From assembly GCA_027024205.1 (NCBI GenBank), contig JALVST010000072.1:1-36383 (forward strand): a stretch of DNA of 36,383 nt, given 5' to 3'. Source of the stretch: Flavobacteriales bacterium. Lineage in GTDB: Bacteria; Bacteroidota; Bacteroidia; Flavobacteriales; Flavobacteriaceae. The position numbers and the translations under genes are program-made. The stretch's first letter is position 1; each line of letters starts with the position of its first letter. Under the pieces are notes generated by a model. The model was given only the letters and a program-made list of their open reading frames with translations. It did not search any database and was not told the origin of the DNA. Below are positions 7,208 to 35,261 of this stretch, piece by piece.

Positions 7208-7374
7208 TATTATTTTTAATAATGTTCTGTCAATAAATATGCCAAAACATATTGTTTGTCAACTCAAACCCGTCATTATCAAATCAAGTCCGTGTTTCAT
7301 TGAAAGATTCTTAACTCAAAACATTCCCAAATTACCTTTGTTACAACGCGTTAAATAATAAAAAATAATTCTGC

Positions 7375-7401
7375 TCCGGTAATCTCATAACCATTACCGG
7401 A
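7375..7401. repeat. 9-bp perfect inverted repeat in the 7193-7495 gap
   Basis: TCCGGTAAT (7375-7383) and ATTACCGGA (7393-7401) flank a 9-base spacer. It lies downstream of the TonB receptor terminator and has no T-tract; its function is unknown. The remaining gap holds the panD promoter and nothing else that I recognise. Confidence 0.45.
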
Positions 7402-7437
7402 AGCGGTCCGTATAATACAAAAACACAAAAGATTATA

Positions 7438-7472
7438 AAAAAGAAGCCTTTTTCCGGAGGCTTCTTTTTTTG
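7438..7472. terminator. Terminator downstream of the Oar-like receptor
   Basis: AAGAAGCCT (7441-7449) pairs perfectly with AGGCTTCTT (7458-7466) around an 8-base loop. An A-run on the left and T7 on the right make it usable in both directions. The natural client is the minus-strand receptor ending at 7496. Confidence 0.8.
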
Positions 7473-7495
7473 TATCAAATTAACAAATAATATTA

Positions 7496-10400
7496 TTAGA
7501 AAATATACCGCAAACCGGCTTGTAATTGCCAACGCGAACGCAAACTGTAATCATTATAAAACGAATGTTGCAAGCCGGTATCAAAACTGTAAACAGGATC
7601 GTCCTTACCGTCACCGTCCACATCGGAGAAACTAACCCCGACAGGTTGTTTGTTGGTCGGTAATTTGACTACCCCCCAATCATTTCTAATAAGGTTGCCG
7701 AGATTTAAAATATTCAAATTAAATTGAATTTTTTGAGCCCCTTTAAGACGATAAGACTGGGTCAACTTCAAATCCACTTTACTACGCCAAGGACTTAAAA
7801 TAGCATAACGTTCCATATATTGTCCGCGATGACTGCTCAAATAGGCATCTTGCGTGATAAAATGATTGAATGCATCTCTTTGCGCTTGTTGTTCAGCCGG
7901 TGTGCCACTAAAATACATTTGATTCAATTCGTTTTGAGTCGGGATGTAAATCAAGTCATTCAGATTAGAACCGTCGCCGTTGATATCTCCCGAATAAGTA
8001 TAAGAGAAGCGGCCACCTTTGGCATATTCATATACAGCTGCCACCGTAGTGCTCCACTCATTGTCATGACCATATTTCCAAATCTTACTGGTAAACCCTA
8101 CAAAACGGTGCTTATCTCCGTAAAGTGACGGTGCCAAATGCGCTTTATTGACATTTCCCAAAGCGGGATTACGCATAAAAGCATCTCCCGTAATCTCAGC
8201 TTCTATAGAATTGGCATCATTGGAGATATTGAAGTTGTATGCCAAACTGGTTCTCAAACCATTTCCGAAATTTTTATTGACTTTGGCTGTAAAGTTAAAC
8301 GAATCACCTAAATCGGTATTGGTAAAAGTATATAAATGTGCGGGAATACCGGCAAAACCACCGTCTTGCATGGTCACATAATCGGCATAGGTATAAACTT
8401 CCCGCCGGTCAATACTGCTATTTAATATACTTGTAGGGGGGGTTAAACCGTAATCACGAACCATCATAGCGTTAATATCTTTGGTATAAGCTACATCGAA
8501 ACTGGTGGTCCAACCGTTTTTAAATTTGTTATCTACACCGATACTGGTGCGCCATACTTGCGGAAATTTAAAATCGGGCGCTACCGGTGTCATATACCAA
8601 CGGCCGACATTCGCAACATGATTGCCTATCCAAACAAAAGGTAAACGGCCTGTAAAGACACCGGTCCCCCCACGGATAACAGCCGATTTGTCTCTACTGA
8701 CATCCCAGTTAAAGGAGAAACGCGGCGACCATAAGATTTTTTGAGAAGGTAAATTTCTGGCACTATAATGTAACGGATTTCCATTTTCATCATACCAAGT
8801 CAAATCTTCCATGATATAATCCGTCCCGGCTTCGGCAATTTTTTCTTCGATATATTTATCCGTGTTAAAATACATCGGTTTGTCAATACGTAGCCCGACA
8901 GCGAATTTAAAATAATCGTTTACTTGAATTTCATCTTGGAAGAATCCTCCGAATTGCCCGACATCCAATTTGGTAATATTCCAATTGCCGGCAGCATCAG
9001 CTGTTTTGGCATAGGCTATTTTTTGAGCAATGGTACCGTCGGCAATGGCATCTCTGAATTGTTGCATCGTATAACTGTTAAACACATCAAATCCGTAACC
9101 GAACAAATTGAAAGAATTGACAAAACTGAATTTTTCAAAATTAAATCCGAGTGTAAAGGTATGATTGTTCAAGTTGTAATTGAAAATATCCGATGCTTGA
9201 TATACTTTTTGGTCCAATTTATTGTGAATGGAAAACGGCTCATGACCGGCAATAATATACGGTTGTCCGTCCTTAAAAATATTGATGACGGGAGCCGGCG
9301 TCGATTTCGGCGTACGATAATCGTCAAAATGGGTATAGCCGGCTTGGAATTTGTTAGACATTTTACCGTCTTTGGAGTTCCAATTGACTTCTGTCAGATA
9401 TGAATCTATATTGTTGTGAATACGGTAACCTGAATTGTAAAACTGCATCACCGTTTTGTCCGGTCCGCGATGCATAATAGCTTCGGGATGGGCATTCAAA
9501 TCACGGTAAGCGTTTAACCGATTGTAGATAAAGGATACCCGCAAGTTATCAGTTGCATTCCAATCCAATTTGGCAATACCTTTATGCGAATACGTATCGT
9601 GCAAATAACCTTCATAAGGACCGGTTTCGTATCCGATACTTTTCAATAGAGCCGACACTTCATCCAAATCGGATTTTAAAACTCTGGAAACATTATCACC
9701 TGTTCTGCCGGGCGCTTTGGCAATATAAAACGAACCCAAATCGGTACGGTCATCAATTTCAGCATTGACAAAAAAGAATAATTTATTTTTGATAATAGGG
9801 CCACCGACACTAAATCCCCCTTGCAATTGTTTCAAATCGGGCTTTAAGGTTGTATTACCCAAATTGACAAGACCCGTCATATCCTGATTACGGTAATATC
9901 CGAAAGCCGTTCCATGGTATGCATTGGTACCACTTTTGGTCACGGCATTGATGGCTGCTCCCGTAAATCCGGATTGAGTCACATCATAAGGAGCTGTCGA
10001 AACTTGTATCTGGTCAATGGCATCCAAAGAAATAGGCTGTGCATTGGATTGCCCTCCGGGAGTGGCAGCATCCAAACCGAAAGGGTTATTAAAAATGGTC
10101 CCGTTCAAAGAAAAATTATTGTATTGGTCATTTCGACCACCGAAGGAGTTCCCACTGGCCGAAGGTTCCAAACGGTAAAAATCTTGTGCAGAACGGGAAA
10201 TTGTCGGTAATGTTTCCAGTTCTTTGTGACCGATACTCGTAACCGGTCCGTTTTTGTCTTTTGCAGCAATTTGCGCATTGTCTTTTACATTGATAACCAC
10301 TTCCTCCAATGCATTGTTGCCCTCTTGCATAACCACTTCGATTTTTTCGGCCTGACCCAATTTCAAATATATATTGTGCAATTCTACCGGTTTGTAACCG

Positions 10401-10645
10401 ACATATTTTATAACAACTGTATAAGGTCCGCCGACACGTAAGTTAGGCAAAATAAAACGACCGTTTTCTTGGGTAACGGTTCCGTTTTTAGTACCGGTCG
10501 GTTCATGAATAACCAATACTTCCGCTCCCATTAAAGGTCCTTCTTTGTCTTTGACAAAACCTTTAAGAGTAGAAGTCGTTACTTGTGCCAATCCTGCTGA
10601 AACAAACAACAGAAATACAATCAGAAAGTTTAGTTTTTTTATCAT
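7496..10645 (-). CDS. Oar-like TonB-dependent receptor
   Basis: A 1049-residue outer-membrane protein. Residues 1-20 (MIKKLNFLIVFLLFVSAGLA) are a signal peptide. Residues about 25-110 form a carboxypeptidase-regulatory-like beta sandwich (LKGFVKDKEGPLMGAEVLV...KYVGYKPVELHNI). A plug domain follows to about 240, with ISLDAIDQIQVSTAPYDV and GFTGAAINAVTKSG. The remainder is a long beta-barrel ending in the aromatic LQAGLRYIF typical of outer-membrane porins. The large size and the QSGFTGAAINAVTKSGTN string are characteristic of the Oar/Cna-B-like TonB family in Bacteroidota. The substrate is not deducible, and no SusD-like partner is adjacent. It is transcribed divergently from the riboswitch-controlled receptor. 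Confidence 0.92.
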   Translation of the reverse strand: MIKKLNFLIVFLLFVSAGLAQVTTSTLKGFVKDKEGPLMGAEVLVIHEPTGTKNGTVTQENGRFILPNLRVGGPYTVVIKYVGYKPVELHNIYLKLGQAEKIEVVMQEGNNALEEVVINVKDNAQIAAKDKNGPVTSIGHKELETLPTISRSAQDFYRLEPSASGNSFGGRNDQYNNFSLNGTIFNNPFGLDAATPGGQSNAQPISLDAIDQIQVSTAPYDVTQSGFTGAAINAVTKSGTNAYHGTAFGYYRNQDMTGLVNLGNTTLKPDLKQLQGGFSVGGPIIKNKLFFFVNAEIDDRTDLGSFYIAKAPGRTGDNVSRVLKSDLDEVSALLKSIGYETGPYEGYLHDTYSHKGIAKLDWNATDNLRVSFIYNRLNAYRDLNAHPEAIMHRGPDKTVMQFYNSGYRIHNNIDSYLTEVNWNSKDGKMSNKFQAGYTHFDDYRTPKSTPAPVINIFKDGQPYIIAGHEPFSIHNKLDQKVYQASDIFNYNLNNHTFTLGFNFEKFSFVNSFNLFGYGFDVFNSYTMQQFRDAIADGTIAQKIAYAKTADAAGNWNITKLDVGQFGGFFQDEIQVNDYFKFAVGLRIDKPMYFNTDKYIEEKIAEAGTDYIMEDLTWYDENGNPLHYSARNLPSQKILWSPRFSFNWDVSRDKSAVIRGGTGVFTGRLPFVWIGNHVANVGRWYMTPVAPDFKFPQVWRTSIGVDNKFKNGWTTSFDVAYTKDINAMMVRDYGLTPPTSILNSSIDRREVYTYADYVTMQDGGFAGIPAHLYTFTNTDLGDSFNFTAKVNKNFGNGLRTSLAYNFNISNDANSIEAEITGDAFMRNPALGNVNKAHLAPSLYGDKHRFVGFTSKIWKYGHDNEWSTTVAAVYEYAKGGRFSYTYSGDINGDGSNLNDLIYIPTQNELNQMYFSGTPAEQQAQRDAFNHFITQDAYLSSHRGQYMERYAILSPWRSKVDLKLTQSYRLKGAQKIQFNLNILNLGNLIRNDWGVVKLPTNKQPVGVSFSDVDGDGKDDPVYSFDTGLQHSFYNDYSLRSRWQLQAGLRYIF

Positions 10646-10864
10646 AGTTTTTGATTTATTTTGGTTTTTGGTTCGCTAAAATAAAAAAAAAGACAGAGTT
10701 CTCTTTATTTAAAATCGTAAAGTTATTAACAATGATTTGATAAAAACATCTTTTTTTAATGATTTGTTCACGGATTAATCCATTTTCTAAAAAAAAATAT
10801 CTGATTTGAAATTTATTTTGCTGTGAAGTCATTTTTTTCATTTTCTGCGTTCAATTAAAAAGCC

Positions 10865-10872
10865 TATCTTTG
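10865..10872 (+). promoter_or_regulatory. -7 box of the riboswitch/TonB receptor promoter
   Basis: TATCTTTG matches TAnnTTTG exactly and lies 15-20 bases before the riboswitch aptamer, placing the transcript start near 10879. At the -33 position there is only a weak T-rich string. The 10646-10864 part of the gap is AT-rich, with no gene that I recognise. Confidence 0.65.
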
Positions 10873-10881
10873 CAAACCGAA

Positions 10882-10956
10882 AAACAGGGGTGCCTTTACA
10901 CAAACGGGCTGAGATCATACCCTTAGAACCTGAACAGGTAATGCTGTTTAGGGAGC
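10882..10956 (+). ncRNA. TPP (THI-box) riboswitch
   Basis: The conserved thi-box blocks occur in order: GGGGTGCC (10887), GGGCTGAGA ending at 10914, ATACCCTTAGAACCTGA (from about 10918), CAGGTAATGCTG (10935-10946) and TAGGGAG (to 10955). These form the pyrimidine-sensor and pyrophosphate-sensor helices of the thiamin pyrophosphate aptamer. It sits in the 5' leader of the TonB receptor starting at 11032, so receptor expression should fall when TPP is plentiful. Confidence 0.95.
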
Positions 10957-11031: not shown

Positions 11032-13383
11032 ATGAAAAAACTCGTTTTATTATTTTTATTATCCGGGTGGTCCGTATGGGCACAAAACGTCAAAATATCC
11101 GGAATTGTAACCGGCGAAAACAACCAACCGCTTGGCGGCGCTGTTGTTTCCGTCAAGGAAATCGAGCTATACCGGACTACCGGCTTTGACGGTGAATTCA
11201 ATTTTAAAGTTAAGCCCGGCAAATACACTTTGACGGTATCTTATACCGGCTACCGTAGCAAGAAGATAATAGTTGTGGCGCAGCGGGACACTTATCTCAA
11301 AATTCAATTATATCCTGCAACTGAAAAACTGGACGAAGTCATTATTAACGCTGTAAAAGCCACTGCCGATATGCCGTTGGCACAAACTAATGTATCCAAA
11401 CAACAACTGGAAGAACAAAACCTGGGACAAGACGTACCTTTTTTACTTGAAACCCTTCCGGGAGTAGTTGTCACTTCGGATGCCGGTGCCGGTGTAGGAT
11501 ATACAGGTATCAGGATTCGCGGTATCAGTGCCCAACAAATCAATGTTACTTTAAATGGTATTCCTTTTAACGATCCCGAATCACAAAGTGTTTATTGGGT
11601 CGATATACCTGATATTGCTGCCAATACGCAAAGCATTCAAATGCAACGCGGTGTAGGAACTTCTACTTTCGGGACCGGCGCTTTCGGGGCCAGTTTAAAT
11701 CTCCAAACCGACCGAATATCAAAAGAACCCGCAGCTGCCATACAAACCGCATACGGTAGTTTTAACACCTTAAAATACGGAGCCAAAGGCAGCACGGGAT
11801 TGCTCAATAATCATTTTGCATTTACCGGACATTTTTCCAAAACCAAATCGGACGGCTATATCGACAGAGCCTCTTCAGACTTGAAATCATATTATATTTC
11901 TGGCACTTATACAGATAAGAAAAACACCTTAAAAGCGCTGGCCTTCGGTGGACATGAAATTACATACCAAGCATGGTACGGTGTTGACAAACAGACCTTT
12001 GAAACAAATCCTACCTTTAATTATGCCGGGGCTATTTATGATAACAATTGGAATATAATAGACTACTATGACAACCAAGTCGATAATTACAAACAGGCCC
12101 ATTATCAACTGCATTTTAGCCATAAATTTAACAATGATGTCAAACTGAATATAGCCGCCCATTACACTAACGGACGCGGTTATTACGAACAATACAAACA
12201 AAACGAAGACTTTGCCGATTACGGCTTCTCCCCCATTGTTATTAACGGACAAACTATCGACAAAACCGACTTGATCCGTCGCAAATGGTTAGACAACGAC
12301 TTTTACGGCGGCATCGTTTCGATGTCATATCATACCCGGGTTGGAAACTATATTTTAGGATTAGCGGCAAACGAATACGACGGCAGACATTTTGGCCGTG
12401 TCATCTGGGCACAATATGCTTCCGACAGTAAAATACGACACGAATATTACCGGAATACAGGCATTAAAAAATCAATAAACGGGTTTGTCAAATCGGTTTA
12501 TAAAATCAGTCAAGCGTTAAAACTTTTTACCGACATACAATTTAGAAAACTCAGCTATTCCGTAAACGGCACCGTGGCGTGGCAAACCCCTTGGCAATTG
12601 TCCGATGATTTGTTTTTTATCAATCCGAAAATCGGCTTGTATTACGACTTAAATACTTCCAATGATTTTTATATCTCGTTAGCACAAACTCATCGTGAGC
12701 CTAATCGTGATGACTATCAAAATACCGTAACCGGTAAACCAAAACCGGAAACTTTAAACGATATTGAGGCCGGCTGGAAATACCAAACAAACAAACTCAA
12801 TGCCGAAGTGAATCTGTATGCCATGCTTTATAAAGACCAACTGGTTTTGAGCGGCCGTATCACCAATGTCGGTGATCCTATCCGTGAAAATGTCGGAGAA
12901 AGTCATCGTTATGGTATTGAAACACAAGTAAGTTATAGATTAAATGACAAGATAAAGATAGAAGGCAATTTGGCTTTGAGTGACAATCGCAATAAAGAAT
13001 ATGTGACCCGCGAAAACGGACAATTCAAAACATATAAAAATACCGAAATCGCTTATTCTCCCGGTATTGTCGCCGCCGGCATGATGACTTTCAAACCGGT
13101 AAAAAATTTAAAACTCCAAGCCATTACCAAATACGTAGGCAGTCAATATATGGACAATCGCAATATACCTACCTCAAAATTAGATAGTTATTTGATTGAA
13201 AATCTCTTAATGAGCTATCAAACAGGTGCCAACAAATGGTTTAAAAATGCAACGTTTTCTTTAAAACTTAACAATATTTTTAACAAAAAATACGCCTCTA
13301 ACGGCTATATGTGGGGGGATGCCCCCCACTATTTTCCACAAGCGGGTTTTAATGTTTTAGCCGGTTTGAATTTGGCCATTTAG
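11032..13383 (+). CDS. TonB-dependent receptor, probable thiamin uptake
   Basis: Outer-membrane receptor of 783 residues. The start at 11032 (MKKLVLLFLLSGWSVWAQ) gives a clean signal peptide; the longer open frame from 10966 runs through the riboswitch leader. After the signal come a carboxypeptidase-regulatory-like domain (VKISGIVTGENNQPLGGAVV...YTGYRSKKIIV), a plug domain (LLETLPGVVVTSDAG...GIRIRGISAQQINVTLNGI), and a beta-barrel ending NVLAGLNLAI. The TPP riboswitch directly upstream implies a thiamin, or thiamin-precursor, substrate; riboswitch-linked outer-membrane receptors of this kind are established in Bacteroidota. No pnuT or thi genes follow in this window. A 14-bp GC-rich hairpin lies 30 bp downstream. 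Confidence 0.92.
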   Translation: MKKLVLLFLLSGWSVWAQNVKISGIVTGENNQPLGGAVVSVKEIELYRTTGFDGEFNFKVKPGKYTLTVSYTGYRSKKIIVVAQRDTYLKIQLYPATEKLDEVIINAVKATADMPLAQTNVSKQQLEEQNLGQDVPFLLETLPGVVVTSDAGAGVGYTGIRIRGISAQQINVTLNGIPFNDPESQSVYWVDIPDIAANTQSIQMQRGVGTSTFGTGAFGASLNLQTDRISKEPAAAIQTAYGSFNTLKYGAKGSTGLLNNHFAFTGHFSKTKSDGYIDRASSDLKSYYISGTYTDKKNTLKALAFGGHEITYQAWYGVDKQTFETNPTFNYAGAIYDNNWNIIDYYDNQVDNYKQAHYQLHFSHKFNNDVKLNIAAHYTNGRGYYEQYKQNEDFADYGFSPIVINGQTIDKTDLIRRKWLDNDFYGGIVSMSYHTRVGNYILGLAANEYDGRHFGRVIWAQYASDSKIRHEYYRNTGIKKSINGFVKSVYKISQALKLFTDIQFRKLSYSVNGTVAWQTPWQLSDDLFFINPKIGLYYDLNTSNDFYISLAQTHREPNRDDYQNTVTGKPKPETLNDIEAGWKYQTNKLNAEVNLYAMLYKDQLVLSGRITNVGDPIRENVGESHRYGIETQVSYRLNDKIKIEGNLALSDNRNKEYVTRENGQFKTYKNTEIAYSPGIVAAGMMTFKPVKNLKLQAITKYVGSQYMDNRNIPTSKLDSYLIENLLMSYQTGANKWFKNATFSLKLNNIFNKKYASNGYMWGDAPHYFPQAGFNVLAGLNLAI

Positions 13384-31329: not shown

Positions 31330-31337
31330 TATTTTTG
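31330..31337 (+). promoter_or_regulatory. -7 box of the mobA-like/fusion gene operon
   Basis: TATTTTTG is an exact TAnnTTTG match 15 bases before the mobA-like ATG at 31353. No TTTG is seen at the standard -33 distance; the nearest TTG is at about 31300. Confidence 0.5.
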
Positions 31338-31352
31338 TTTAAAATTACAATC

Positions 31353-31916
31353 ATGAAAGTTTCCGGGATAGTTATAGCAGGCGGCCAAAGTTTAAGGATG
31401 GGCATTGATAAACATTCACTGATTTTCAGAAATCAAAGTTTTATAGACCGTGCCGTCGGTTTATTAAAAAACTTTACCCCGGACATTATCATCAGTGCAA
31501 ATGATAAATCTCATTCTTATGCATATAAAACAATACCGGATAGCGTGCCAAATACCGGCCCAATGGGCGGCCTTTACACTTGTTTGCCTCTGATTAAAAA
31601 TGACAGAGCACTTGTAATACCGGTAGATATGCCTTTATTAAGTCCCGAAGTCTTACGATACCTCTTGCAGCAAGCCGATCTAAGTAAAAAAATAACGGTT
31701 TTTCACGCAAATGACCGATTACAGATGTTGGCAGGATTATATCATAAAGGAATCGTTTCTTTTTTGCAAAAACAATTGGCCGCGGGTGATTACAAACTGC
31801 AAAATTTATTAAAAACAATACCGCATCAAATCATTGAAGCGAAAAATTTTTCCCCGTTATTTTTCAATATCAATACACCCGGACAATATAAAAAACTAAA
31901 TTTGGAAAATGGATAA
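31353..31916 (+). CDS. Molybdenum cofactor guanylyltransferase (MobA-like)
   Basis: A 187-residue nucleotidyltransferase. I start at 31353 (MKVSGIVIAGGQSLRMGIDK), which puts the nucleotide-binding loop at residues 5-20 as in MobA. GPMGGLYTCLPLI and the metal-binding VIPVDMPLLSPEVL match the family. MobA adds GMP to molybdopterin to form MGD; related MobA-like proteins include MocA. The protein is slightly short but not truncated. Its stop overlaps the next gene by 8 bases, so the two are probably coupled. No other Moco genes lie in the window, which makes the partner gene of interest. Confidence 0.85.
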   Translation: MKVSGIVIAGGQSLRMGIDKHSLIFRNQSFIDRAVGLLKNFTPDIIISANDKSHSYAYKTIPDSVPNTGPMGGLYTCLPLIKNDRALVIPVDMPLLSPEVLRYLLQQADLSKKITVFHANDRLQMLAGLYHKGIVSFLQKQLAAGDYKLQNLLKTIPHQIIEAKNFSPLFFNINTPGQYKKLNLENG

Positions 31917-33609
31917 CACACAGCAGGATATTTGGTTAAAAGCGGCAGTCATAGGTAGTATTTGGGCTAGTTTTGAAATTGTTTTCGGTAGCTTTTTTCA
32001 CAGTTTACGATTACCTTTTGCCGGTACATTTTTGACTTTTTCGTCCATCGTTTTATTGACAGCCTTCTCTTACAAATGGCAAGATAAAAATCTATATATT
32101 AAAGCCAGCATCATTGCCGCTCTAATGCGTTCGTTGATACCGACTTCCATTATTCTGGGGCCCTTAATCGGGATATTGGTGGAAGCAACTTTATTTCAAT
32201 TATCCGTTAATTTATTCGGACGCCATCTTTTCAGTTTCGCCCTGGCCGGTATTTTGGCTATGTTTAGTGCCATTATACATAAAATTATCAGTATTATCTT
32301 GATATACGGTTTTGATATTATCAAAATTTTAAAAAATTTATATCACATTTTTTTACATATCACTCATCTTGATTTACCACCTGGACAACTTTTTCTGATT
32401 GCCGGACTTGTATATGTTTTACTTGGGATAACGGCTGCACTAACCGGACAATGGACAGGTCAACATTTAACAACAATCACCATCACAAAAGCGTTTACCG
32501 GAGAATCTTGGAATTTAAAAACCGATTTATTTGACGTTGACGGATTCCATTATCATTCCAAATATTTATTTATCCATGTCTTATTATTAATCACATTCCT
32601 TTTCGGTTTGGAATTGTATCCGTTGGTTGATGTGATTTTTCCGGTTTCAATTTATTTATTATTCCTTATAAAACGATATGGTAAATCCCTGCGACGTTTG
32701 AGTAAAATGTTATTCTGGATTCAATTGATCATTATCGTGCTGATATCGGTTTGGTTATGGCAAGATAAAACCGAAGGTTTATTGGTAGGTCTTAAAATGG
32801 TTTTACGGGCTATTTTGGTTGTATCAAGTTTTACAGCCATCAGTGTCGAACTGAAAAATCCGTTAATCAAAGCACTTTTGTATAAAAAGGGTTATTCGCA
32901 ACTGTACGCCACATTATCTTTGGCAACAGCAGTGGTTCCTTTTATTTTAAAATACATCTCAGAAGACCGGAAAATACTATTCAGACCAATAAAAGTATTA
33001 CAAAAAGCCATAGCCTTATCAGATGTTTTGCTGCAAGAATTTAAACGGCAAATTTTTCAACGAAATAATATTTTCATTATTTCCGGAGAAACGAGAAGTG
33101 GTAAAACAACTTTCCTTAAAAAAGTAATAGCCGGTATAAAACACAAATATCCCTCGGCAAAAATAGGAGGGATAATAGCCCACGGCACGGATTTCAGAGG
33201 AGAACGTTACGGTTTTCATGTAGAAAATATAATTACGGGCGAAAAACAGCATTTGTGTAGTCGTGACCCGGCAAATGATGACGATATCAAAACAGGTCGT
33301 TTTTACTTTTATAGAAGTGGCCTCGATTTTGGCAACCAAGCAATTTTGGAAAATTTGGATACATTGGACCTTTTGGTTATTGACGAAATCGGTTATTTGG
33401 AACTCAAAGGAAAAGGTTGGTTTGAAGCTATTGAAAAAGCTATGAGCAAAAAGAAATTGGATATGATATTTGTCGTCAGAAAACGAATTTTGGAAAACGT
33501 CTTAAAATTATGGCAAAACAAACATTTTATTGTAGTTGATATTACCAATAACCGCCCGGAGTTTGTTGTAAATCATCTGATAAAAAGTTTCCAAAATAAA
33601 TCCTCATAA
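31909..33609 (+). CDS. ECF-like membrane protein fused to THEP1-like NTPase
   Basis: A 566-residue three-part protein. Residues 1-190 have about six hydrophobic helices, similar in pattern to ECF substrate-binding (S) components. Residues 215-380 contain more helices and a CbiQ/T-component-like run (GLKMVLRAILVVSSFTAIS, then YATLSLATAVVPFILKYISED...RPIKVLQKAIALSDVLLQEF). Residues 385-566 are a P-loop NTPase of the THEP1 type: Walker A GETRSGKTT (393-401), KIGGIIAHGTDFRGERYGF, Walker B LLVIDEIGYLELKGKGW (488-504) and FVVRKR. THEP1 proteins are nucleoside-triphosphatases, not ABC ATPases: no ABC signature LSGGQ is present. The ATG overlaps the MobA-like stop. The assignment of the membrane parts is inference; the NTPase call is stronger. 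Confidence 0.7.
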   Translation: MDNTQQDIWLKAAVIGSIWASFEIVFGSFFHSLRLPFAGTFLTFSSIVLLTAFSYKWQDKNLYIKASIIAALMRSLIPTSIILGPLIGILVEATLFQLSVNLFGRHLFSFALAGILAMFSAIIHKIISIILIYGFDIIKILKNLYHIFLHITHLDLPPGQLFLIAGLVYVLLGITAALTGQWTGQHLTTITITKAFTGESWNLKTDLFDVDGFHYHSKYLFIHVLLLITFLFGLELYPLVDVIFPVSIYLLFLIKRYGKSLRRLSKMLFWIQLIIIVLISVWLWQDKTEGLLVGLKMVLRAILVVSSFTAISVELKNPLIKALLYKKGYSQLYATLSLATAVVPFILKYISEDRKILFRPIKVLQKAIALSDVLLQEFKRQIFQRNNIFIISGETRSGKTTFLKKVIAGIKHKYPSAKIGGIIAHGTDFRGERYGFHVENIITGEKQHLCSRDPANDDDIKTGRFYFYRSGLDFGNQAILENLDTLDLLVIDEIGYLELKGKGWFEAIEKAMSKKKLDMIFVVRKRILENVLKLWQNKHFIVVDITNNRPEFVVNHLIKSFQNKSS

Positions 33610-33702: not shown

Positions 33703-34287
33703 ATGAAAATCCTGTTAATTTTTACACTTACATTGAGTTTAAATTTATCTTGTGGTAATGAAAAATCCGTTGGCCGGCAAGACTATCAACAACAACAAGC
33801 AACCGGCATTGTTAAGAATGATCGTCATGCAGATACCGGTTATCAAACAGTCAAGAAATACGGTTTTCAATTTCAAATTCCTGACAATTGGCAATTGCAA
33901 ATGAATGATTTCAAAACAAAAAATCTGAAAGGCGACCTAAAAACCATAGAAACTTCTTATGTTGACAATGTTAACAATAGCCATATCAGATTGGTTTATC
34001 ATCCCGGAAATTCAGGTCTGACTTTATATCGTTATTATGCCGATAATAACCCGGAAAAAACCGGAAAAACCAAAATAGGACAGTCAGATGCCATTAAAAG
34101 GGATGAAATTTTGACCCGCGACGGAAAAGGACATTTGTTATCCAAACCTGTCATCAGGCATAAAATCTATGTTGTAGCTCCCGGACAGAAAGGCGTATTG
34201 GAAATTGTTTATGATTTACCTAAGGACGATGATAAAGCCGGAGAGGTTTATAATAATTTCATAAAAGGCATAAAATCTATCGAATAA
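33703..34287 (+). CDS. Putative lipoprotein of unknown function
   Basis: A 194-residue protein with a lipoprotein signal: MKILLIFTLTLSLNLSC, lipobox Cys17 followed by GNEKS. A short Gln-rich linker (QDYQQQQ) leads to a compact domain beginning KKYGFQFQIPDNWQLQ, which resembles the opening of PsbP/DUF1795-like folds. It ends KGVLEIVYDLPKDDDKAGEVYNNFIKGIKSI. The family is not recognised with confidence. It lies 35 bases upstream of the GH25 lysozyme start, so cotranscription is possible. It is probably anchored to the periplasmic or outer membrane. Confidence 0.7.
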   Translation: MKILLIFTLTLSLNLSCGNEKSVGRQDYQQQQATGIVKNDRHADTGYQTVKKYGFQFQIPDNWQLQMNDFKTKNLKGDLKTIETSYVDNVNNSHIRLVYHPGNSGLTLYRYYADNNPEKTGKTKIGQSDAIKRDEILTRDGKGHLLSKPVIRHKIYVVAPGQKGVLEIVYDLPKDDDKAGEVYNNFIKGIKSIE

Positions 34288-34322
34288 CCGGTTTGTCATC
34301 TTTTTTATTAAAACTTTTTCAT

Positions 34323-35261
34323 ATGAAAAAAATCATTTACCTTACAGGGTTATTTTTCTTCTTAAAAATAGCATCAGCTCAAAACATACTCGGTATTGAT
34401 GTATCACACCATCAAGGGAATATCAACTGGCAATTGGTGGCAAACGACGGAAAGGTTTTTGCTTTTTGCAAGGCTACCGAAGGTATGACCTATCAGGATC
34501 CTCTTTTTACTACCAATATGACCAATGGCATGAATGCCGGTGTTGTAATGGGCGCTTATCATTTTGCCCGTCCGGACAACAACACGGCCATACAAGATGC
34601 AGATAATTTCATTGCACACGCCGGTAATTATATCGGCAACGGTTTTTTACCGCCGGTTTTGGATTTGGAAGATCCGAATGCTTCTACACATTTAGACCAA
34701 ATTTTCACTTCATCGCAATTAACGGCTTGGGTACAAGCCTGGCTCAACAGAGTTGAAAATCAAACCGGCGTCCGCCCTATTTTGTATTTAAATTCCAATT
34801 ATGCGTATTTTTTAGACAATTCCTTAACCACTTACGGCTTATGGATTGCAAAACCAGGCACTTCTCCCACCACACCGCCAAACAATACCGGAAATTGGAA
34901 CGATTGGCTATTTAAACAATATTCGTGGTACGGAAGTGTCAACGGTATTTCCGGTAACGTCGATTTAGACGTCTTTCACGGCTCTACTTCCGATTTCAAT
35001 ACATTGGTCAGTGTGCAAGAATATAAATCTTTAAACTTTTCATTTTATCCCAATCCGGCTCACAACTACCTTTATATAAAATCTAAAAATGAATTTCACC
35101 CCGTCTCGGCAAAGATTTTCGATTTAAACGGACGTTTACTTAAACGATATGATGAGAATGTTTCAAAAATTGATATCAGTAACTTGACAAACGGTATTTA
35201 TCTGTTACAAGTTACTTTTGACAATTCGCAAAGTAGCATTGTGAAGTTTATCAAATTCTAA
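34323..35261 (+). CDS. GH25 lysozyme with T9SS sorting domain
   Basis: A secreted muramidase of 312 residues. The start at 34323 (MKKIIYLTGLFFFLKIASAQ) gives the signal peptide. The glycoside hydrolase family 25 core (residues 22-225) shows IDVSHHQGNINW (Asp26), FCKATEGMTYQDP, GAYHFARP, the catalytic DxE in PPVLDLEDP (Asp114, Glu116), RPILYLNSNY and GNVDLDVFHG. The last 80 residues (FSFYPNPAHNYLYIKSK...AKIFDLNGRLLKRYD...GIYLLQVTFD) are a type A sorting domain for type IX secretion. It likely cleaves the MurNAc-GlcNAc backbone of foreign or own peptidoglycan outside the cell. A terminator follows at 35271. Confidence 0.93.
   Translation: MKKIIYLTGLFFFLKIASAQNILGIDVSHHQGNINWQLVANDGKVFAFCKATEGMTYQDPLFTTNMTNGMNAGVVMGAYHFARPDNNTAIQDADNFIAHAGNYIGNGFLPPVLDLEDPNASTHLDQIFTSSQLTAWVQAWLNRVENQTGVRPILYLNSNYAYFLDNSLTTYGLWIAKPGTSPTTPPNNTGNWNDWLFKQYSWYGSVNGISGNVDLDVFHGSTSDFNTLVSVQEYKSLNFSFYPNPAHNYLYIKSKNEFHPVSAKIFDLNGRLLKRYDENVSKIDISNLTNGIYLLQVTFDNSQSSIVKFIKF

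Follow-up and report, generated by a model that had tools for sequence, protein, structure and literature searches.

Two overlapping genes encode a MobA-like protein and a three-part fusion protein

The window, that is the whole 36,383-nucleotide stretch of DNA analysed here, comes from contig JALVST010000072.1 of a Flavobacteriales bacterium (assembly GCA_027024205.1). Near one end it carries two genes, both of whose reading frames check out at the coordinates given below together with the parts of the second protein, which we call S, T and K.

31353..31916, + strand: MobA-like nucleotidyltransferase, 187 aa from its ATG, with the canonical start motif AGGxSxRMGxDK
31909..33609, + strand: S-T-K fusion protein, 566 aa
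31909..31916, + strand: overlap of the two genes, 8 bases, ATGGATAA, read from the sequence
31915..32484, + strand: S-like part, residues 3-192, ECF S-component fold, match to 5edl
32539..33060, + strand: T-like part, residues 211-384, EcfT-like transmembrane bundle (211-315) and additional helices
33067..33585, + strand: K part, residues 387-559, THEP1/NTPase_1 P-loop NTPase (PF03266, 1ye8)
33085..33108, + strand: Walker A, residues 393-400 (GETRSGKT), from the K alignment
33370..33387, + strand: Walker B with catalytic glutamate, residues 488-493 (D492 E493), from the K alignment

An in-frame TTG lies at 31335, ahead of the ATG of the first gene. In a Pfam search its product matched PF12804 (E 2.4e-28), and the best of the MobA NCBIfam models gave an E-value of 8.7e-32 and 110.2 bits against an equivalog cut-off of 164, as every match to these models stayed under its cut-off. 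Judged by its sequence, the protein is therefore MobA-like and not a certified MobA, though both PF12804 and the start motif are present. This motif is retained in most of 11 MobA homologues linked to the module and eroded in one (L082).

The first-pass annotation had described an 8-base overlap between the two genes, and the sequence bears this out. The same overlap recurs in relatives, for example at locus L033 (mobA at 7427-8008, fusion gene at 8001-9695), and at two loci (L035 and L067) mobA and the S-T-K gene are joined in-frame into a single 754-aa reading frame, MobA-S-T-K. Because of this conserved overlap and in-frame fusion, translational coupling of the two genes is predicted as likely. 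At 33703-35261, 3' of the pair, the window holds a lipoprotein-like gene and a lysozyme-like gene with no visible link to the molybdenum cofactor (Moco); both also follow the pair in several members of the genus (L033-L036).

Within the genus, 12 of 13 genomes encode the fusion protein, with identities of 61-78%, the thirteenth genome being 83% complete, and full-length S-T-K relatives with 26-30% identity occur in two other families (L053 and L054). Conservation of the protein across the genus and as a full-length fusion in two other families indicates that the S-T-K arrangement is more than a chance joining.

The membrane parts adopt the folds of ECF S and T components

The same annotation had proposed that S-like, CbiQ-like and THEP1-type parts are combined in one chain. 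When the three segments were searched separately, only residues 385-566 matched a family, as described below; residues 1-200 and 210-380 gave no family match of meaningful score in Pfam and NCBIfam. PF02361 from Pfam was matched neither by the window protein nor by the scanned members, and profile searches of the PDB with the S-T and T alignments returned no ECF chain. A Pfam scan of the members gave weak matches only, the most frequent families being PF09819 (5 members) and PF09605 (4 members, best E 2e-4), both of which we take to be ECF S families.

The assignment of the membrane parts relies on structure comparison. An AlphaFold model of residues 1-384 was built from 40 relatives (pLDDT 87.6, pTM 0.85). 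For this S-T model, the list from Foldseek alone was dominated by MFS transporters with poor TM, and ECF proteins emerged only after realignment with VIA-align, which re-scores the list of chains from Foldseek and is not a search in itself. Among the 998 solved chains realigned, the best row was the YkoE S-component (5edl), which covered residues 3-192 (Z 11.8, rmsd 3.1, 162 aligned), followed by an EcfT chain (8bms_C) covering residues 211-315 (Z 6.9, rmsd 3.6, 101 aligned); all other rows had Z <=5. The two matches fall along the chain in the expected order, S-component first and EcfT second. In the alignment of the 40 relatives, E23, G27, H31, P36 and G39 of the S part are invariant in the 39 rows covering them, and in the T part R300 is kept in 34/34 and P344 in 32/32 covering rows.

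Structure comparison and PF03266 thus agree with the proposed composition of the chain. An ECF transporter is expected to combine an S-component fold, an EcfT/CbiQ-type T-component and two ABC ATPases with the LSGGQ signature. The S-fold requirement is met by the model against 5edl; that for a T-component is met by fold only, since the sequence searches gave no link to CbiQ/EcfT, so that homology of the modelled T part to these proteins is not proven. Only the membrane bundle of EcfT from the solitary ECF module (8bms_C) superposes on residues 211-315, whereas the ABC-ATPase-binding region of EcfT is unmatched.

The last part of the chain is a THEP1-type NTPase

Residues 385-566 matched PF03266 (NTPase_1/THEP1) with an E-value of 7e-22 and 78.4 bits, against a gathering score of 23.9. 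Residues 387-559 superpose on THEP1 structure 1ye8 (Z 17.6, rmsd 2.7, 161 aligned) and on 2i3b, also a THEP1 (Z 16.1), and the full-length model matched only THEP1 in structure comparison. G398 and K399 of Walker A, as well as D492 and E493, are present in all 23 K sequences, and R524 in 22 of them. The K part therefore satisfies what defines a THEP1/NTPase_1 domain, namely PF03266 above its gathering score, the RecA-like fold, Walker A and a DE Walker B, and it shares the whole-domain fold of the THEP1/COG1618 family.

The absence of an ABC signature from the chain, also pointed out in the first-pass annotation, held in our scan, in which no LSGGQ-like motif was found in the window fusion protein. 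Likewise, no ABC ATPase gene was seen in the split S-T operons as read. The third ECF requirement is thus not met, and since the ABC ATPases are absent the fusion protein is not an ECF transporter by ECF's own criteria, but it probably works like one.

The module varies in layout and often adjoins molybdoenzyme genes

The S, T and K parts were found in four arrangements:

Type A: S-T-K fused (window, L033-L041, L053, L054)
Type B: S, T and a TonB-dependent receptor as separate proteins, plus K where found (L043-L050)
Type C: S and a shortened T joined in one protein, with K as a second protein (L051, L052, L057-L062)
Type D: K ahead of S in one protein (L055, L056)

The clearest operon, L044, encodes a molybdopterin oxidoreductase, an Fe-S subunit, a NarJ-type chaperone, a CMD protein, S, T, a TonB receptor, K and MobA. 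The TonB receptors of the split operons scored best with B12 (BtuB) and haem receptor models, below cut-off, and no TonB receptor adjoins the type A loci. Most fetched neighbourhoods of the module contain genes for DMSO-reductase-family (DMSOR) or XDH enzymes, mobA, fdhD or MOSC genes. The proposal would have fallen if neighbours elsewhere were unconnected to Moco or transport; relatives in fact adjoin genes for molybdoenzymes, MobA, FdhD, XDH and TonB receptors.

Several further features of these neighbourhoods were recorded. L058 carries at 7319-8380 a THEP1-MobA (K-MobA) fusion adjoining FdhD and an FdhF/YdeP-family oxidoreductase, while L083 has at 9789-10905 a THEP1-like gene that neighbours one for a MOSC-domain protein and has no S-T gene in its vicinity. 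The Fe-S subunit of the L044 molybdoenzyme (12269-13360) bears a Por secretion C-terminal sorting domain (PF18962, E 4.8e-6), and a carboxymuconolactone-decarboxylase-family gene directly adjoins the module in L044, L051, L052, L060 and L062.

Many module genomes encode Mo enzymes and lack cofactor synthesis genes

Co-occurrence was surveyed in 395 genomes of the phylum (Bacteroidota), of which 39 have the module; weak matches in family f18, confined to some 90 residues near the K start, were excluded from the module count. A search of 80 module-free genomes with profile A4 gave no match; it was run without a positive control, and in a local test this profile recovered unseen S-bearing members at E 1e-39 to 1e-84. 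MoaC (PF01967) was found in 228/395 genomes. Synthesis-gene absence was judged on MoaC, MoaE and MoeA, with MoaA, MoaD and MogA outside the survey. Partial PF01568 matches of about 1000 and 700 aa were considered as Mo enzymes and dropped from the counts, being judged likely complex-III-type or other subunits.

The window genome, which is 97% complete, has no detectable MoaC, MoaE, MoeA or ModB. On another of its contigs (C52) it encodes a Mo-enzyme operon whose alpha subunit is closest to thiosulfate reductase PhsA, with Fe-S and NrfD-type subunits; the gene beside it encodes, as read, a YeeE-like protein. A single missing contig could hide the whole moa/moe set in one assembly, since a genus member with the module (G495) carries the synthesis genes together in one full cluster. 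This cause is unlikely, because nine further genomes of the genus also lack MoaE and MoeA.

All three synthesis proteins are absent from 24 of the 39 module genomes, 20 of which encode a DMSOR- or XDH-family enzyme. What would be expected of users of a Moco importer, Mo enzymes without de novo synthesis genes, is thus met by the window genome and by 20/24 of these genomes. Among the MoaC-negative genomes tested for both, a Mo enzyme occurs in 23 of 27 with the module and in 1 of 20 without it. A within-family permutation on this contrast gave p 0.001, and p = 0.036 once low-scoring MoCoBD_1 proteins were counted (four more module-free MoaC-negative genomes). The module-free genomes are a chosen subset and not a random sample. 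MoaE was missing in 48/51 module genomes and detected in 71/80 MoaC-positive controls; the model does detect MoaE in this phylum, and the contrast is no unbiased test, as the controls were selected for having MoaC.

Some genomes fit poorly. About ten of the genomes with the module retain MoaC and MoeA without MoaE, and in such genomes molybdopterin synthase is missing or very divergent. This combination, with no detectable MoaE, was noted in G148, G188, G393, G294, G236, G047, G062, G035, G074 and G333, and also in G345, G156 and G160. Two type D genomes (G016 and G119) have MoaC, MoaE and MoeA, as does G495 with its full cluster, and four module genomes have no Mo enzyme by the DMSOR and XDH families. 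Conversely, G009 has XDH, is MoaC-negative and lacks the module; ABC permease and ATPase genes lie a few genes upstream of its XDH (L080, 4638-6156, on contig C14) and are possibly an alternative supply route. A few module-free genomes may be counterexamples to the importer reading.

The fusion protein as a putative importer of ready-made Moco

Domain identities, model folds, operon linkage and the missing synthesis genes in Mo-enzyme genomes were observed. Mo enzymes without synthesis genes, together with an importer-like module tied to MobA, indicate cofactor uptake by indirect reasoning. We consider it reasonably likely that the fusion protein imports ready-made Moco in an ECF-like manner and feeds MobA, with transport, substrate and the motor role of THEP1 being inferred. 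That these elements form a bacterial salvage pathway for ready-made Moco, consisting of a TonB receptor, an ECF-like S-T importer powered by THEP1, and MobA, is a proposal towards which we lean only slightly.

The substrate would most likely be Moco in finished form, either Mo-molybdopterin or one of its dinucleotide derivatives, that other organisms release. In the split versions, a BtuB/haem-type TonB-dependent receptor would carry it across the outer membrane. The S part would catch this large cofactor in the inner membrane and the T part would link S to the cytoplasmic K, which would stand in for the two ABC ATPases of classical ECF transporters, supplying NTP energy or gating release. K might drive the S-T cycle as a RecA-like NTPase, perhaps in a dimer of chains, which is an inference; alternatively, K could trap the cofactor or serve MobA. 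Coupled or fused MobA would then add GMP, yielding the guanine dinucleotide form for DMSO-reductase-family enzymes. NTP-driven uptake, the exact substrate and its binding, energy coupling and the hand-over to MobA are inferences only. There are no uptake data, and how one THEP1 per chain would drive S-T remains unexplained, classical ECF needing two ABC ATPases.

The first-pass annotation had suggested molybdate, tungstate or a pterin as substrate. Its Moco link stands, and molybdate or tungstate is unlikely because most module genomes lack the genes for turning molybdate into cofactor. Molybdate import had been our first candidate, given module genomes without ModB, and was demoted once MoaC, MoaE and MoeA proved absent. 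An ECF-like importer of molybdate or tungstate replacing ModABC, itself similar in supplying Mo but of unrelated architecture, would agree with the linkage to mobA and Mo enzymes and with the distribution of ModB, which exceeds its family cut-off in 132/395 genomes, namely in 0/39 module genomes versus 132/356 others. However, one ModB-rich family (f18) confounds this comparison, and molybdate imported by the 24 genomes without MoaC, MoaE and MoeA could not be converted to cofactor. Known S-components take vitamin-sized ligands, and a BtuB/haem-type receptor fits a large one. We thus hold this explanation to be improbable. We are equally doubtful that metal-free molybdopterin, or a pterin precursor from earlier in the pathway, is imported and receives its Mo later: three MoaC-negative module genomes (G051, G353 and G006) do keep the Mo insertase MoeA, but MoeA and ModB are also missing in most auxotrophs, the window genome included, so that the imported form probably already holds Mo, and import of cPMP is hard to square with the missing MoaE.

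The protein could also be no importer but a membrane-bound maturation or insertion factor handing Moco to molybdoenzymes, with K as a MobB-type GTP adaptor for MobA. The tight coupling and fusion to MobA and a weak match of K to MobB (E 0.03) would suit such a factor, which nonetheless fits poorly with the ECF S and T folds, the TonB receptor in the split operon and the absent synthesis genes, and appears very unlikely to us. Finally, import of an unrelated vitamin such as thiamine, suggested by YkoE being a thiamine S-component, deserves hardly any credence, since the module is linked or fused to MobA and Mo enzymes repeatedly, in varied forms, across several families and correlates with Mo enzymes among MoaC-negative genomes.

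Compared with known systems, the putative Moco importer resembles the group I ECF transporter YkoEDC, sharing the YkoE fold and dedicated, co-encoded S and T parts; it differs in having one THEP1 in place of ABC ATPases, S, T and K in one chain, and links to MobA and Mo enzymes instead of thiamine genes. ECF transporters work by toppling of the S-component in the membrane, with a module that hydrolyses ATP powering the cycle (PMC7145868, PMC4820897). THEP1 from Aquifex stands alone as an NTPase, with no known in vivo function (PMC1079890), whereas K is joined to or co-encoded with membrane parts. In the accepted view, cells needing Moco must make it; C. elegans does take up ready-made dietary Moco from other organisms, but is an animal (PMC9793310). 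Molybdopterin uptake via an unrelated outer-membrane family has been the subject of speculation (PMC12282271). Our literature searches on Moco, molybdopterin or THEP1 transport returned no such system and no description of a bacterial Moco importer, in keeping with the initial impression that the layout was undescribed.

If the proposal is true, ECF-type S and T parts can run on a non-ABC motor, the THEP1 family would gain its first physiological role, and the importer would be a tool for Moco study. It would also explain the nitrate, sulfur-compound and purine-oxidising enzymes of these Bacteroidota without synthesis genes, and Moco would be an exchangeable, shared, vitamin-like commodity, like B12.
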